Of a DNA stretch of 64,000 nt, positions 12,883 to 18,755 are shown in pieces. The stretch is from Calditerrivibrio sp. (GTDB lineage Bacteria > Chrysiogenota > Deferribacteres > Deferribacterales > Calditerrivibrionaceae), in the NCBI GenBank assembly GCA_026415135.1, contig JAOAHS010000040.1, positions 1-64,000 on the forward strand, given 5' to 3'. The notes under the pieces are model-generated. The model had not been told where the DNA came from and did not search any database. It was given only the letters and a program-made list of their open reading frames with translations. Within the stretch, counting starts at the first letter, position 1. Every line of letters starts with the position of its first letter. The position numbers were made by a program, and so were the translations under genes.

Positions 12883-13794
12883 TCAAGTGGAGTTTGATTT
12901 CATAAAACTTTCTATTGTACTAAAAAAATTATCCTCCCCATCGATCTTTGTTTCTATCTTCACATACATACTTTTTTTTCTCATCTCACAGGGTAATTTT
13001 ACATAATCTTTTTCTGTTGTTAAAAAAAAATCTGCATTAAACCTGTTTTGTACAATCTGTAACTTCTCATAATCCTTAACACTATAAATATGATGATCAC
13101 TGAAACCTCTAAATGCAGCAATATTTACCCCATTTTTTATCAAAAAATCATAAAACTGTAAGTTATTGGCAAGCCCCGAAAAAGCGACAAAACTCAAAGA
13201 TGAATAGTTAACCAACTCATCCCCATGATAAATTCCACAAAAAACCACATCAGAAAAATATATCGGTTTACCAACCACATAACAACTTACCCTGTTGGGA
13301 ACCCCCCTTCTACCCTTACATTTTGTAAATACTACAATATCTGCCCTTTTTATACCATTTGGCAATTCCCTAAGGTATCCAAAAGGAAAAGGTAAGCCAG
13401 TCGAAATGGGATTTTCATAATCAAGCAAAAGGATATCAACATCCTTATCTATATCTTTTCTTTGGTAAGCATCATCAAGGAGTATAATATCAGGATTTAC
13501 ATCCCTAATGATATGTTTGATTGCAAAACCTCTATCTTTACAGGTTACAACGTATGCCTTTTTGAGTTTACTTGCAATCAAATAAGGTTCATCAGCTGCT
13601 AAAGGGGGACAGAGCTTAACCTGTTCACCATCTGATATCACATTGTAATCATACCCTATCCTCCCCTTGTATCCCCTCGATAAAACCGCTACCCTAAAAC
13701 CCTTTTCTATATAATAAGCACCAAGCTTAATAACCATGGGTGTTTTACCAGTGCCACCCATGGTTATATTACCTATAGAAATGATTTTAGCCAA
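12883..13794 (-). CDS. lpxK: Tetraacyldisaccharide 4'-kinase (lipid A)
   Basis: Phosphorylates the lipid A disaccharide at the 4' position on the cytoplasmic face of the inner membrane. It has 303 residues. The P-loop GGTGKTP is at 13-19, LSRGYKG and ADEPYL follow, and ILLDDAYQRKDIDKD corresponds to the LpxK DDGxQ-type catalytic region with a two-residue change (DDAYQ). The protein begins right at the P-loop strand; most LpxK proteins have about 40 more residues including a membrane-anchoring helix, and there is no room for them because the previous gene ends 3 bases upstream. Membrane contact would then have to come from the core domain. Confidence 0.9.
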   Translation of the reverse strand: MAKIISIGNITMGGTGKTPMVIKLGAYYIEKGFRVAVLSRGYKGRIGYDYNVISDGEQVKLCPPLAADEPYLIASKLKKAYVVTCKDRGFAIKHIIRDVNPDIILLDDAYQRKDIDKDVDILLLDYENPISTGLPFPFGYLRELPNGIKRADIVVFTKCKGRRGVPNRVSCYVVGKPIYFSDVVFCGIYHGDELVNYSSLSFVAFSGLANNLQFYDFLIKNGVNIAAFRGFSDHHIYSVKDYEKLQIVQNRFNADFFLTTEKDYVKLPCEMRKKSMYVKIETKIDGEDNFFSTIESFMKSNST

Positions 13795-13797
13795 TAT

Positions 13798-14148
13798 CTA
13801 AACCTTTTTCTCCAAGTGTTCAACTATTCTCTGATAGATCTCATTTGCATCTTCCAGCCCCCACGCAACAGGTGTCTTCCCCACAGCCACATAAGGAAGA
13901 GGTAACCTATTTTCCACAATTGTGTTTATATCTTCAATATAATCGAGAACCTCCGGAGTAGATATATCCACATATTTAAGTTCGAAGGCTTCTTGTCCCA
14001 TTTTGTTTGTTAGCAAAGCATCCACCTTGTTAGCCATTTCAAAGTAAGGATCATCTTTTACCCCACAACCTGAAGGGAAATAAGAAGGTGCTCAGCCAGA
14101 CACAAAATCTGTACTTGTTCCAAAAATTTTGATCAAGATCTTTTCCAT
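13798..14148 (-). CDS. Probable selenoprotein with thioredoxin-like fold (in-frame TGA at codon 19)
   Basis: Reading from the ATG at 14148 gives MEKILIKIFGTSTDFVSG, then TGA (14092-14094), then an uninterrupted frame to 13798: 116 residues if the TGA is read as selenocysteine. Support: GAGG lies 6 bases before this ATG, while the first ATG after the TGA (14037) has no ribosome site; the protein is coherent across the TGA; and a SECIS-like hairpin follows immediately. The strand IKIFGTS, then Sec19, then a second conserved-looking Cys28 (PSGCG), then FELKYVDIST and LPLPYVAVG suggest a small thioredoxin-like fold resembling YuzD/DUF1462, with Sec at the position of that family's redox Cys. Function unknown, presumably redox. 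It sits 8 bases after purF and 3 bases before lpxK. A nonsense-mutated gene is the alternative. Confidence 0.75.
14052..14094 (-). promoter_or_regulatory. SECIS-like hairpin after in-frame TGA
   Basis: Starting 4 bases after the TGA, CTTCTTATTTCCC can pair with GGGGTAAAAGATG through ten base pairs and three internal mismatches. The 10-base apical loop TTCAGGTTGT carries GG at bases 22-23 after the TGA. A short stem just downstream of UGA with GG in its apical loop at about this distance is the pattern of bacterial SECIS elements such as that of E. coli fdhF. Pairing was done by hand, not with a folding program. Confidence 0.65.
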
Positions 14149-14156
14149 GTATAACC

Positions 14157-15539
14157 TCACATTTTATTTATAGTCTCACCATCACCATGCAACGTTGGGT
14201 AATCGCCAGTAAAACAAGCATCACAAAAGGGTAGGTTTTTCACACACTCATACATCCCTTGAATAGATAGATAACCCAGTGAGTCCGCGGTAATATATTT
14301 TCTAATCTCATCTATAGTATGGGTAGATGCAATTAACTCTTTTCTTGTAGGTGTATCTATACCATAAAAACAGGGGAACTTGGTTGGAGGTGATGATATT
14401 CTCATATGTACCTCTTTTGCTCCAGCCTCCCTGAGCATCTTTACAATTTTCCTACTTGTAGTACCCCTCACTATGGAATCATCCACCACCACAACCCTTT
14501 TTCCTCTTATGATGGAAGTAACAGGATTTAATTTTATTTTGACGCCAAAGTGTCTGATGGATTGGGACGGTTCTATAAATGTTCTTCCAACGTAGTGGTT
14601 TCTAATCAACCCCTGTTCGTAAGGCAAACCACTGTACTCAGAATACCCCAAAGTGGCAACTACGCCCGAATCAGGGACAGGAATAACAATATCGGCTTCT
14701 ACTGGATTTTCAAGAGCTAATCTCTTACCAAACTCCTTGCGCACATCATAAACATACTTTCCAAATATCATAGAATCTGGTCTTGCAAAATATATGTATT
14801 CAAAAATACATGGTCGAGGCACAACGCTTTCAAAAGGTTTGAAGCTTTTGATACCATCATCGTTGATAATGACCATTTCTCCAGGCTCTATCTCTCTAAT
14901 AAACTCAGCTTCTACAAGATCGAGAGCTACCGTTTCACTGGCAAGCATATATCCACTTCTTATTTTACCAAGAACAAGAGGTCTTACTCCCATAGGATCT
15001 CTAACACCGATTAATGAGTGTTCGGTCATAAAGATTAAAGAGTATGCCCCCTTTAAAAGGGAAAGGGCATCTACGATCGCCTCAATGAGTGTAGGTTTTT
15101 GATTTTTAGCAAGAAGATGGATGATTATCTCACTATCAGTAGTGGACATAAAAATAGAACCACTTTCAACAAGCTCCTGTTTTATCTGGGAAGCATTTAC
15201 GATATTCCCATTATGCACCAAAGCTATTTTACCTTTGTTGATTTCAGCAAATATAGGCTGGGTATTCGAAATATTGTTTGCTCCTGTAGTGGAATACCTG
15301 TTGTGACCTATAGCAATATCACCCTTGAGCTCTCTAAGAACATTATTAGAAAAGATATCAGCTACAAGACCTAAGGATTTGTGAATATAAAAAGAGTGCC
15401 TATCAGTAGAACAGATGCCTGAGCCTTCCTGACCCCGATGCTGGAGCGAGTACAAAGACAAATATACCAAATTAGCCGCGTCTTTATCACCATAAACACC
15501 AGCTACACCACATTCTTCACGAAATTTATCCCAAAGCAT
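14157..15539 (-). CDS. purF: Amidophosphoribosyltransferase
   Basis: First committed step of purine synthesis: glutamine plus PRPP to phosphoribosylamine. It has 460 residues. The mature N-terminal nucleophile is Cys10 after a nine-residue propeptide (MLWDKFREE). The PRPP-binding signature VVVDDSIVRGTT lies near residue 340. Cysteines in RPCIFE, KFPCFYG and LPFCDACF sit as in the [4Fe-4S]-containing Bacillus-type enzyme, so an oxygen-sensitive cluster is likely. It follows purL by 3 bases in the operon order S-Q-L-F. Confidence 0.96.
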   Translation of the reverse strand: MLWDKFREECGVAGVYGDKDAANLVYLSLYSLQHRGQEGSGICSTDRHSFYIHKSLGLVADIFSNNVLRELKGDIAIGHNRYSTTGANNISNTQPIFAEINKGKIALVHNGNIVNASQIKQELVESGSIFMSTTDSEIIIHLLAKNQKPTLIEAIVDALSLLKGAYSLIFMTEHSLIGVRDPMGVRPLVLGKIRSGYMLASETVALDLVEAEFIREIEPGEMVIINDDGIKSFKPFESVVPRPCIFEYIYFARPDSMIFGKYVYDVRKEFGKRLALENPVEADIVIPVPDSGVVATLGYSEYSGLPYEQGLIRNHYVGRTFIEPSQSIRHFGVKIKLNPVTSIIRGKRVVVVDDSIVRGTTSRKIVKMLREAGAKEVHMRISSPPTKFPCFYGIDTPTRKELIASTHTIDEIRKYITADSLGYLSIQGMYECVKNLPFCDACFTGDYPTLHGDGETINKM

Positions 15540-15542
15540 ACT

Positions 15543-17774
15543 CTAACCCATCGCTTTTTTAATAACAGTTTTGTAAATATATTTTGGTATATCAAGGGGG
15601 ATATTAATAAGATTCTTTTTGTTATAATTTACTATGATATTCCTTCCAGAAGTTTCACCAATCTTAGAAAATGGCAAACTATAGGATCTTAAAAGCTTTT
15701 CAACATTTTTACAGTTTATCTTCTCAACTTCGAGGATCACCATACCCTGAGATTCGCTGAAAAGATAGGCATCAGCCCTCATATCACCTTTTAAATTTAC
15801 AACAAAACCGATATCGTTTTTAAAAGACATCTCAGTAAGTGCAATCACAAGACCACCTTCGGATACATCGTGGGCAGCAAGGATTAATTTCTGTTTAGCA
15901 GCATCCACCATAAAATCTATGAGATCTTTTTCATAGTACAAATCGACCTCTGGCACTTTACCTTTTATAAGACCATGGATATGACTTAGATACTCACTAC
16001 CACCTATCTCCCCCCTATTTGAACCAACGAGATATATAACATTGCCTAAATTTTTAAACTCAGAAGTAATAACATATTCCTGCTTATCAACCACACCAAC
16101 AGCCACAACAGTAGGTGTAGGAAAAACAGCCTTTCCGTCAGTTTCATTGTAAAGACTTACATTACCACTTACCACAGGCACATTTAATCGTTTGCATGCA
16201 GATGCCATACCTTCGACAGCATTTACAAACTGCCACATTATTTCAGGCCTTTCTGGATTACCAAAATTAAGACAATCTGTAATGGCAAGGGGCCTTCCAC
16301 CACCCATAGCAACATTCCTACAAGCTTCCACAACAGCCTGAACTCCACCAATAAATGGATCTAAGTAGCAGTATCTTCCATTACAGTCAGAAGACATAGC
16401 AATACATCTTTCAGAACCTTTTATTCTTATGACTGCAGCATCAGACCCTGGTAAAACTATTGTATTTGTTTGTACCATGTGATCATACTGTTCGTAGACA
16501 TATTCCTTTGAAGCGATATTGGGGCTTTCAAACATCTTCATCAAAATATCGTTATAATTCTTAGGTTCAGGAATATCATTTATATCAAATTTTCTAACCT
16601 CATCTATATACGCTGGTTTTGAATATGGTCTATCATAAACTGGAGCCTTATCCGACAAAGGAGACGCTTCTAAACATGCCACTTCTTCTCCTTCCCAATA
16701 TAGACGTACGTAACCATCCCCAGTGACTTCTCCAATCACCTCAGCATCCAGATCCCATTTATCAAATATCTTTTTAATTTTTTTCTCACAACCCTTCTTA
16801 GCAACAATAAGCATCCTCTCCTGGGATTCTGACAACATAATCTCATAGGGATTCATATTCTTTTCCCTAACAGGAACTTTATCAAGATGAAGCTTCACCC
16901 CACTACCAGCCCTTGATGCCATCTCAAAGGATGAGCTGGTTAGCCCCGCAGCCCCCATATCCTGAATACCCACTACATAGTCCTCCTGCATGAGTTCTAA
17001 ACAAGCCTCTAAAAGCAATTTTTCTTTAAAAGGATCACCAATTTGGACATTAGGCCTCTTAGAAGTATCATTTGAGGAGAATTCTTCACTGGCCATCGTA
17101 GCACCATGAATACCATCCCTACCAGTCTTCGCACCAACATAAATTATGATATTCCCAACACCTTCAGCTTTTGCATAAAAAATCTTATCTTTTTTCACCA
17201 AACCAAGTGCAAAGGCATTGACCAAAGGGTTTTTTTGATAACATTCATTAAAAAACACCTCCCCTCCGATCGTAGGCACACCAAAACAGTTACCATACCC
17301 GGCAATCCCAGCCACAACCCCTTCAAAGATATGTTTTGTTTCGTTGTTATCCAATTTTCCAAACCTCAATGAGTTCATAGCTGCTACAGGCCTTGCACCC
17401 ATAGTAAAGACATCCCTCAAAATACCACCAACCCCTGTAGCTGCCCCTTGATAAGGCTCTATATAAGAAGGGTGATTATGGCTTTCTATTTTAAAACATG
17501 CACATATATCCCCATCTATCTCTATTATTCCTGCATTTTCACCTGGCCCTTGAACAACCCATGGAGCAGTCGTTGGAAACTTTTTAAGATGTATTTTACT
17601 ACTTTTATAACTACAATGCTCACTCCACATCGCTGAAATAATACCCAATTCGATATAATTAGGTGTCCTACCCAAAAGTTTCTTAGCCATTTCAAATTCC
17701 TCTGGTTTTAACCCCATCTCCTGGGCTATTTTGACATCTACTTTTGGGAATCCAAATTTATCATAAACACTCAT
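15543..17774 (-). CDS. purL: Phosphoribosylformylglycinamidine synthase subunit PurL
   Basis: ATP-dependent amidation of FGAR to FGAM. It has 743 residues, the small (prokaryotic) PurL that needs separate PurS and PurQ, both of which are encoded upstream. Visible elements are [11 protein letters not shown] near the N-terminus, [23 protein letters not shown], the tandem AIRS-like domains with [16 protein letters not shown], and [10 protein letters not shown] near 640. purQ overlaps its start by 4 bases. The three-protein complex should form co-translationally. Confidence 0.97.
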
Positions 17775-18472
17775 ATTACACCCTTTTCCAGAAATTTTTT
17801 AATCGATCTAAAAATATGGATTCCATCTTCAGACCCCAACACCCTTTCCGAAGCTCTTTCAGGATGGGGCATCATACCCAAGACATTGCCATTTTTGTTT
17901 ATAATACCTGCAATATTATAAACAGAACCATTAGGATTTGACTCCTCATCAACAACTCCTGATTCAGAACAGTATCTAAATATAATCTGATTGTTCTCCT
18001 TAAGTTCTTCGAGCCCTTTTTGGTCTATATAGTAGTTTCCATCCATGTGGGCTATTGGAATCTTTAAAACCTCACCAACGGTATAAAGGTAAGTAAAAGG
18101 TGTGTTTATATGTTCAACAGAAATACTTACATTTCTACATATAAACTTTAGATTTTTATTTCTCATTAATGCTCCGGGTAACAAACCTGTTTCTGTCAAT
18201 ATCTGAAAACCGTTGCATATACCTATAACAAAACCACCTTTCTCTGCAAAATCCACTACAGCATCCATAATAGGGGATTTACTAGCAATCGCCCCACATC
18301 TTAAATAATCACCAAACGAGAAACCACCCGGCAGTACTACCAGATCATACTTTTTTATTTTTTTATCCTTGTGCCAAATAAAATCTGTATCAAAACCTAC
18401 AATATCTTTTAAAACGTAATAACAATCATAATCACAATTAGAGCCCGGAAAAACTACCACCCCAGCTTTCAT
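17771..18472 (-). CDS. purQ: Phosphoribosylformylglycinamidine synthase, glutaminase subunit PurQ
   Basis: Supplies ammonia from glutamine to PurL. It has 233 residues of a class-I amidotransferase. The nucleophile is Cys86 in [17 protein letters not shown] near residue 210 carries the catalytic His and Glu; [14 protein letters not shown] is the family oxyanion region. It overlaps purS by one base (TAATG) and purL by four. Confidence 0.96.
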
Positions 18473-18714
18473 TATTTATCACTCACATATTTTATAGTAT
18501 ATTCTTCTATTATAGGGTTTACCAACAACTTTTCTGTTAATTCTTTTATCTTATCCTCATATTTTCTGACTTTATCAAATTCTATTTCTATTATTTTACC
18601 TACCCTTACATCATTTACAAAATCATAACCCAATTTGGACAAAGACCCAAGTACCGCCTGACCCTGTGGATCTAAAACCACCTCTTTTAGCTTAATAGTA
18701 ACAATAGCTTTCAT
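18472..18714 (-). CDS. purS: Phosphoribosylformylglycinamidine synthase subunit PurS
   Basis: Small structural subunit that docks PurQ onto PurL. It has 80 residues from the ATG at 18714; the TTG three bases earlier is also possible because AGGAG lies 5-8 bases upstream of both. [37 protein letters not shown] is the recognised PurS core (here summarised: residues 9-45). First gene of the pur operon. Confidence 0.94.
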
Positions 18715-18755
18715 CAATCCATCTCCTAAAAGTATTAGATAGTTAGAACGAAACG

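Follow-up and report, generated by a model that had tools for sequence, protein, structure and literature searches.

Gene organization of the locus

The window, which is the entire 64-kb stretch analysed here (64,000 nucleotides of a Calditerrivibrio sp. contig), carries on its minus strand a purine biosynthesis cluster followed directly by a small gene whose frame contains an in-frame TGA (Table 1). Specifically, the frame opens with an ATG at 14148, contains this single TGA at codon 19 and closes with a TAG ending at 13798, giving 116 residues. The upstream ATG is the sole start that the GAGG at 14158-14155 precedes. An ORF finder that stops at TGA (at least 60 amino acids) returned just one ORF within 13798-14148, a 79-residue product beginning at 14037. 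The original prediction, made from the window sequence, had described a frame broken at codon 19 alone, a ribosome site fitting only the upstream ATG, a second Cys nine residues after codon 19 (Cys28) and a 79-residue fragment as the product that gene finders would call, and each of these points was recovered on the reading frame.

Table 1. Features of the predicted selenoprotein locus (window coordinates)
Feature	Position	Strand	Basis or remark
Predicted selenoprotein gene of 116 codons plus stop, with Sec at codon 19	13798..14148	-	frame and orthologue comparison
In-frame TGA, predicted to be read as selenocysteine (U19)	14092..14094	-	invariant in 20/20 orthologues
Cys28 codon, possible resolving Cys (U-x8-C)	14065..14067	-	third base pairs in SECIS stem of many orthologues
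bSECIS-type apical hairpin, 7-position stem CCCUUCA / UGUGGGG with U-U mismatch	14061..14077	-	loop GGU at 14070-14068, 21 nt after UGA
Shine-Dalgarno-like GAGG	14155..14158	-	overlaps purF stop codon, 6 nt before ATG
purF, Fe-S type amidophosphoribosyltransferase	14157..15539	-	immediately upstream, gap 8 nt
purL	15543..17774	-	same transcription unit by gene spacing
purQ	17771..18472	-
purS	18472..18717	-
lpxK, downstream neighbour	12883..13794	-	found in window's genus alone

With respect to genomic context, the gene starts 2–15 nt after purF in all 20 orthologues identified below, with purQLF upstream in every case and purS as well in most. The downstream neighbour varies, so that of the earlier placement between purF and lpxK the purF side holds for every orthologue and the lpxK side for the window's genus alone. 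PurF contains Bacillus-type Fe–S Cys motifs, the residues of which we take to be Fe–S ligands. One draft genome contains purSQLF together with the selenoprotein gene twice (L092 and L093, on G038:C7 and G038:C16), reflecting either duplication or two mixed strains.

Conservation of the TGA and of both flanking regions

Orthologues were sought initially by whole-genome search of 60 relatives and then across the full class (48 genomes), and both searches pointed to the same 19 carrier genomes, which together hold 20 genes. Among the carriers with names are Calditerrivibrio sp. W28, Seleniivibrio woodruffii and Denitrovibrio sp. BM701, along with other Deferribacteraceae. Every one of the 20 genes contains exactly one in-frame TGA, always in the same column, and neither Cys nor any other sense codon occupies that column in any of them (in G034 the search match ran on to a terminal TAA, and the TGA is alone within the gene). 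The surrounding block is ungapped and reads FVSGU-[A/S/N/G]-PSYFP-x-GCG, with identity to the window protein falling as low as 46% over the set.

Both sides of the TGA are under purifying selection. With synonymous sites near saturation (pS about 0.7 in the orthologue set), pN/pS is 0.27 for codons 4–18, 0.31 for codons 20–36 and 0.26 for codons 55–98; together with the 20/20 conservation of the TGA, these values rule out a decayed gene and agree with the proposal that the two sides form one protein, with no decay on either side. Moreover, a scan from codon 20 to about codon 60 found no ATG, GTG or TTG in frame after the TGA in G002 or in either G038 copy, and the downstream part therefore cannot be a separate gene there. 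In one copy from G027 (L018), the first in-frame start after the TGA is codon 78.

The original prediction had also suggested looking for homologues with Cys at position 19. Homologues were indeed found, all with TGA, and a close Cys form did not appear, the distant YuzD with CxxC being the only candidate for a Cys counterpart. Specifically, neither the 48 genomes of the class nor a sample of 385 relatives yielded a close Cys homologue, and no Cys remnant was found behind purF in class genomes without the gene.

A SECIS-type hairpin downstream of the TGA

A hairpin with GG in its loop at a bacterial SECIS distance had been predicted from the window alone, and it proved to be conserved. All orthologues have a GGU or GGC loop 21 nt after the UGA, on a stem pairing positions 18–24 with positions 28–34 counted from the TGA. 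According to the bSECIS model, the apical loop lies 16-37 nt after the UGA, G is found in the first two loop positions and the stem comprises 4-16 bp (PMC13188914); the 21-nt spacing, GGU/GGC loop and 7-position stem observed here all fall within it. The window's hairpin, with its one U-U mismatch, is among the weaker examples, having an energy of -4.9 kcal/mol as an isolated 30-nt segment. When 51 nt are folded, this hairpin is the apical stem-loop of a structure at -8.6 kcal/mol, and only over this longer fold does the window pass the -7.5 kcal/mol threshold. A single mismatch, at pair 22–30, is present in six distinct rows of the alignment, including that of the window, whereas the copy in G040 has two mismatches elsewhere. 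An Rfam search over the locus returned nothing credible.

Compensatory changes in the stem sit at third codon positions. Phe24 is written TTC where codon 30 opens with G and TTT where it opens with A (or pairs as G·U), and codon 26 is ACA with Cys28 as TGT and GCA with Cys28 as TGC. In terms of statistics, which come from related sequences and hence not from independent trials, 125 of 133 possible pairs are formed, compared with 89.6 +/- 4.0 (maximum 102) in synonymous, protein-preserving recodings; the covariation score is 0.285 versus 0.162 +/- 0.022 in shuffles, with 0/500 shuffles reaching the observed value; and pairing is 93.7% in place and at most 56.3% when the stem is slid along the alignment.

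Selenocysteine machinery and co-occurrence

A search of the window's genome for sel genes, which had been proposed as a check, located selD, tRNA-Sec(UCA) and an adjacent selA and selB (C21). The SelD of this genome (L097, G000:C2:15157-16077, minus strand) is itself a selenoprotein, with TGA as the catalytic codon (SKAAGUAAK). Across the class, the new gene and selA are both present in 18 genomes and both absent from 27 (Fisher p = 4.6e-10). There are three exceptions. G022, an 87% complete assembly, has the gene, and selA/selB were not found in it; G018 has selA, and its purF region is missing. The third, G006 (L113), encodes selA, selB and an intact purF yet lacks the gene, which is a real absence.

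Predicted fold and relationship to YuzD/DUF1462

The predicted model has a β-α-β-α-β-β-α arrangement of thioredoxin type, with a mean pLDDT of 79. Its top PDB match is 1xg8, the YuzD protein SA0798 of S. aureus (Foldseek probability 1.00, E 1.2e-3), and a profile match to the same entry was obtained at E 0.01. The sole Pfam match is DUF1462 (PF07315), which covers residues 37-108 of the window protein at 23.2 bits against a gathering cut-off of 25; in a PF07315 genome scan, one orthologue scored 25.7 bits. A thioredoxin-like protein close to YuzD/DUF1462 had been anticipated, and these results place the two as distant relatives. A search of a viral structure library matched generic thioredoxins alone.

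The selenoprotein and YuzD/DUF1462 share 20-23% identity, the thioredoxin-like fold and a Pro at position 85, which is invariant among orthologues and lies where the cis-Pro of a thioredoxin fold is expected. The two differ in the loop that follows the first strand, where YuzD has C-x-S-C and no Sec, whereas the selenoprotein has VSGU...C28 without a CxxC. This loop, which contains U19 and Cys28, is about 8-10 residues longer than that of YuzD, and the register between the two is ambiguous as a result: a MAFFT alignment from the strand side puts Sec19 on the second Cys of the YuzD CxSC, and alignment back from the helix brings Cys28 close to it. Since the model has pLDDT < 50 for loop residues 14-30, it lends no structural support to a U19-Cys28 partnership. 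In terms of genomic context, Priestia yuzD lies beside a NifU-family gene and not beside purF. At L132 (2550-3300), a Bacillus-type yuzD adjoins a NifU-family gene, and YuzB and a gene for Fe-S assembly are close by, which hints at an Fe-S link for DUF1462.

A second Sec subfamily

Two related genera contain a second Sec subfamily, represented by L029 (1435-1788, G024:C2) and L137 (about 1489-1809, G040:C5); both genomes carry a member of the main family as well. These two proteins are 25% identical to the window protein and 31% identical to each other. Sec occupies the same column as in the main family, and a loop opening with GU is likewise found 21 nt after the UGA; constancy of this spacing at such low identity provides separate support for readthrough. 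The motif is C-x3-U (C-x3-UMP) instead of the U-x8-C of the main family, and the neighbours are methyltransferase-like and cytochrome b5-like genes (named by eye), not purF. This arrangement also bears on Cys28. Because its codon overlaps the SECIS stem, the conservation of Cys28 is partly explained by the RNA; the second subfamily, which keeps a SECIS there without the Cys, suggests that Cys28 is kept for the protein.

Novelty of the family

The original prediction knew of no described selenoprotein family of this kind, and our comparisons agree. NCBIfam gave no match up to E 10 for the window protein and none to E 1 for relatives, and no DUF1462 entry appears in the table of the 2026 catalogue of 119 prokaryotic selenoprotein families (PMC13188914); these two results exclude a known selenoprotein family. 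In the literature searched, no paper joining a selenoprotein with DUF1462 or YuzD was found, and the titles and abstracts retrieved for Deferribacter, Denitrovibrio, Calditerrivibrio and purF do not concern the family. Known thioredoxin-like bacterial selenoproteins (Trx UxxC, Grx, UXX-star, HUIPC, VPGUxxT, SaoT and others) have the same small thioredoxin fold, a Sec in the loop that follows strand one, and a bacterial SECIS. Unlike these, the window protein has neither UxxC nor CxxU, its possible partner Cys being at +9. The locus represents a new selenoprotein family, and not a new mechanism.

Searches for distant members among 385 relatives (family search), 371 relatives (PF07315) and 133 genomes of another Sec-using phylum gave weak, chance-like matches alone, and seven loci inspected as candidates (L060, L061, L062, L064, L067, L074 and L075) were dismissed. 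A search for plasmid carriage gave no match. Methods built on Sec/Cys pairs miss genes that lack a close Cys homologue, a limit stated by the deep-Sep authors (PMC12013277); the absence of such a homologue from the genomes searched makes the present gene one of the type that these methods miss.

Interpretation and alternative explanations

Taken together, these observations make it very probable that the locus encodes a genuine 116-residue selenoprotein, the first of a family that our searches found in Deferribacterales alone, in which UGA19 is decoded as Sec within a thioredoxin-type protein distantly related to YuzD/DUF1462. Of the checks suggested with the original prediction, all those carried out supported this reading. 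The protein would be made from the purSQLF operon, with SelB and tRNA-Sec inserting selenocysteine at UGA19 under the direction of the hairpin 21 nt downstream. Its most likely role is that of a thiol/disulfide oxidoreductase dependent on the selenol. The U19 selenolate would attack a disulfide or an oxidised thiol of the substrate, after which the invariant Cys28 of the main subfamily may resolve the intermediate as a selenenylsulfide; in the second subfamily, the Cys preceding U could act as the resolver.

With respect to function, a different possibility is that the protein helps to mature or repair either the oxygen-sensitive [4Fe-4S] cluster or the catalytic Cys of co-transcribed PurF, its selenol reducing or delivering to that site. 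The unvarying position behind purF, the Bacillus-type motifs in PurF, and the location of Priestia YuzD next to a gene of the NifU family and close to one for Fe-S assembly are all in keeping with this idea. Nonetheless, in some genomes of the class that lack the gene, PurF retains at least part of this set of Cys motifs, which argues that PurF does not need the selenoprotein, and a shared operon says little about function by itself. We consider such a role unlikely, and a link of any kind to the Fe–S enzyme PurF is conjectural. The distribution of the gene does follow a Sec-obligate pattern, with no Cys form in the class and no gene in genomes without Sec machinery, bar one incomplete draft. 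That an apparently obligate-Sec family ties selenium to purine synthesis in Deferribacterales, by maintaining the activity of Fe-S PurF, is a still more doubtful extension of the same idea.

The remaining alternatives concern the decoding of the UGA itself. Suppression of this codon, or its reassignment to Cys or Trp, has nothing specific in its favour and is very improbable given that UGA ends many genes of the window, that SelA, SelB, SelD and tRNA-Sec are present, that the gene tracks selA and that a SECIS-type hairpin follows. The same use of TGA as an ordinary stop, which terminates 18 of the 40 ORFs of at least 200 amino acids in the window, could instead be taken to mean that it is a true stop here too, the product being either the 79-residue ORF or a short peptide encoded upstream. 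This reading is scarcely credible, however: past the terminal TGA of those ORFs the frame runs on for no more than 16 codons, as against 97 codons in the selenoprotein frame, and two separate ORFs are ruled out by the comparative data, namely the invariant TGA, the purifying selection acting on either side of it (also on codons 20-36), the several orthologues without a downstream start, and a conserved SECIS whose pairing exceeds that of recoded sequences. An assembly or sequencing artefact, raised solely by an earlier caveat on a resequenced codon and with nothing found in its favour, has a negligible chance, as the same TGA occurs in 19 separately assembled genomes.

Implications

The selenoprotein described here extends the list of roughly 119 prokaryotic families by one, and gives the uncharacterised DUF1462/YuzD a Sec counterpart. 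The literature searched did not touch on the selenoproteome of its order. Carrier genomes of the Deferribacterales would have the wrong 79-residue ORF, or no ORF, annotated behind purF. The fixed operon partner of the gene offers a starting point for functional tests.
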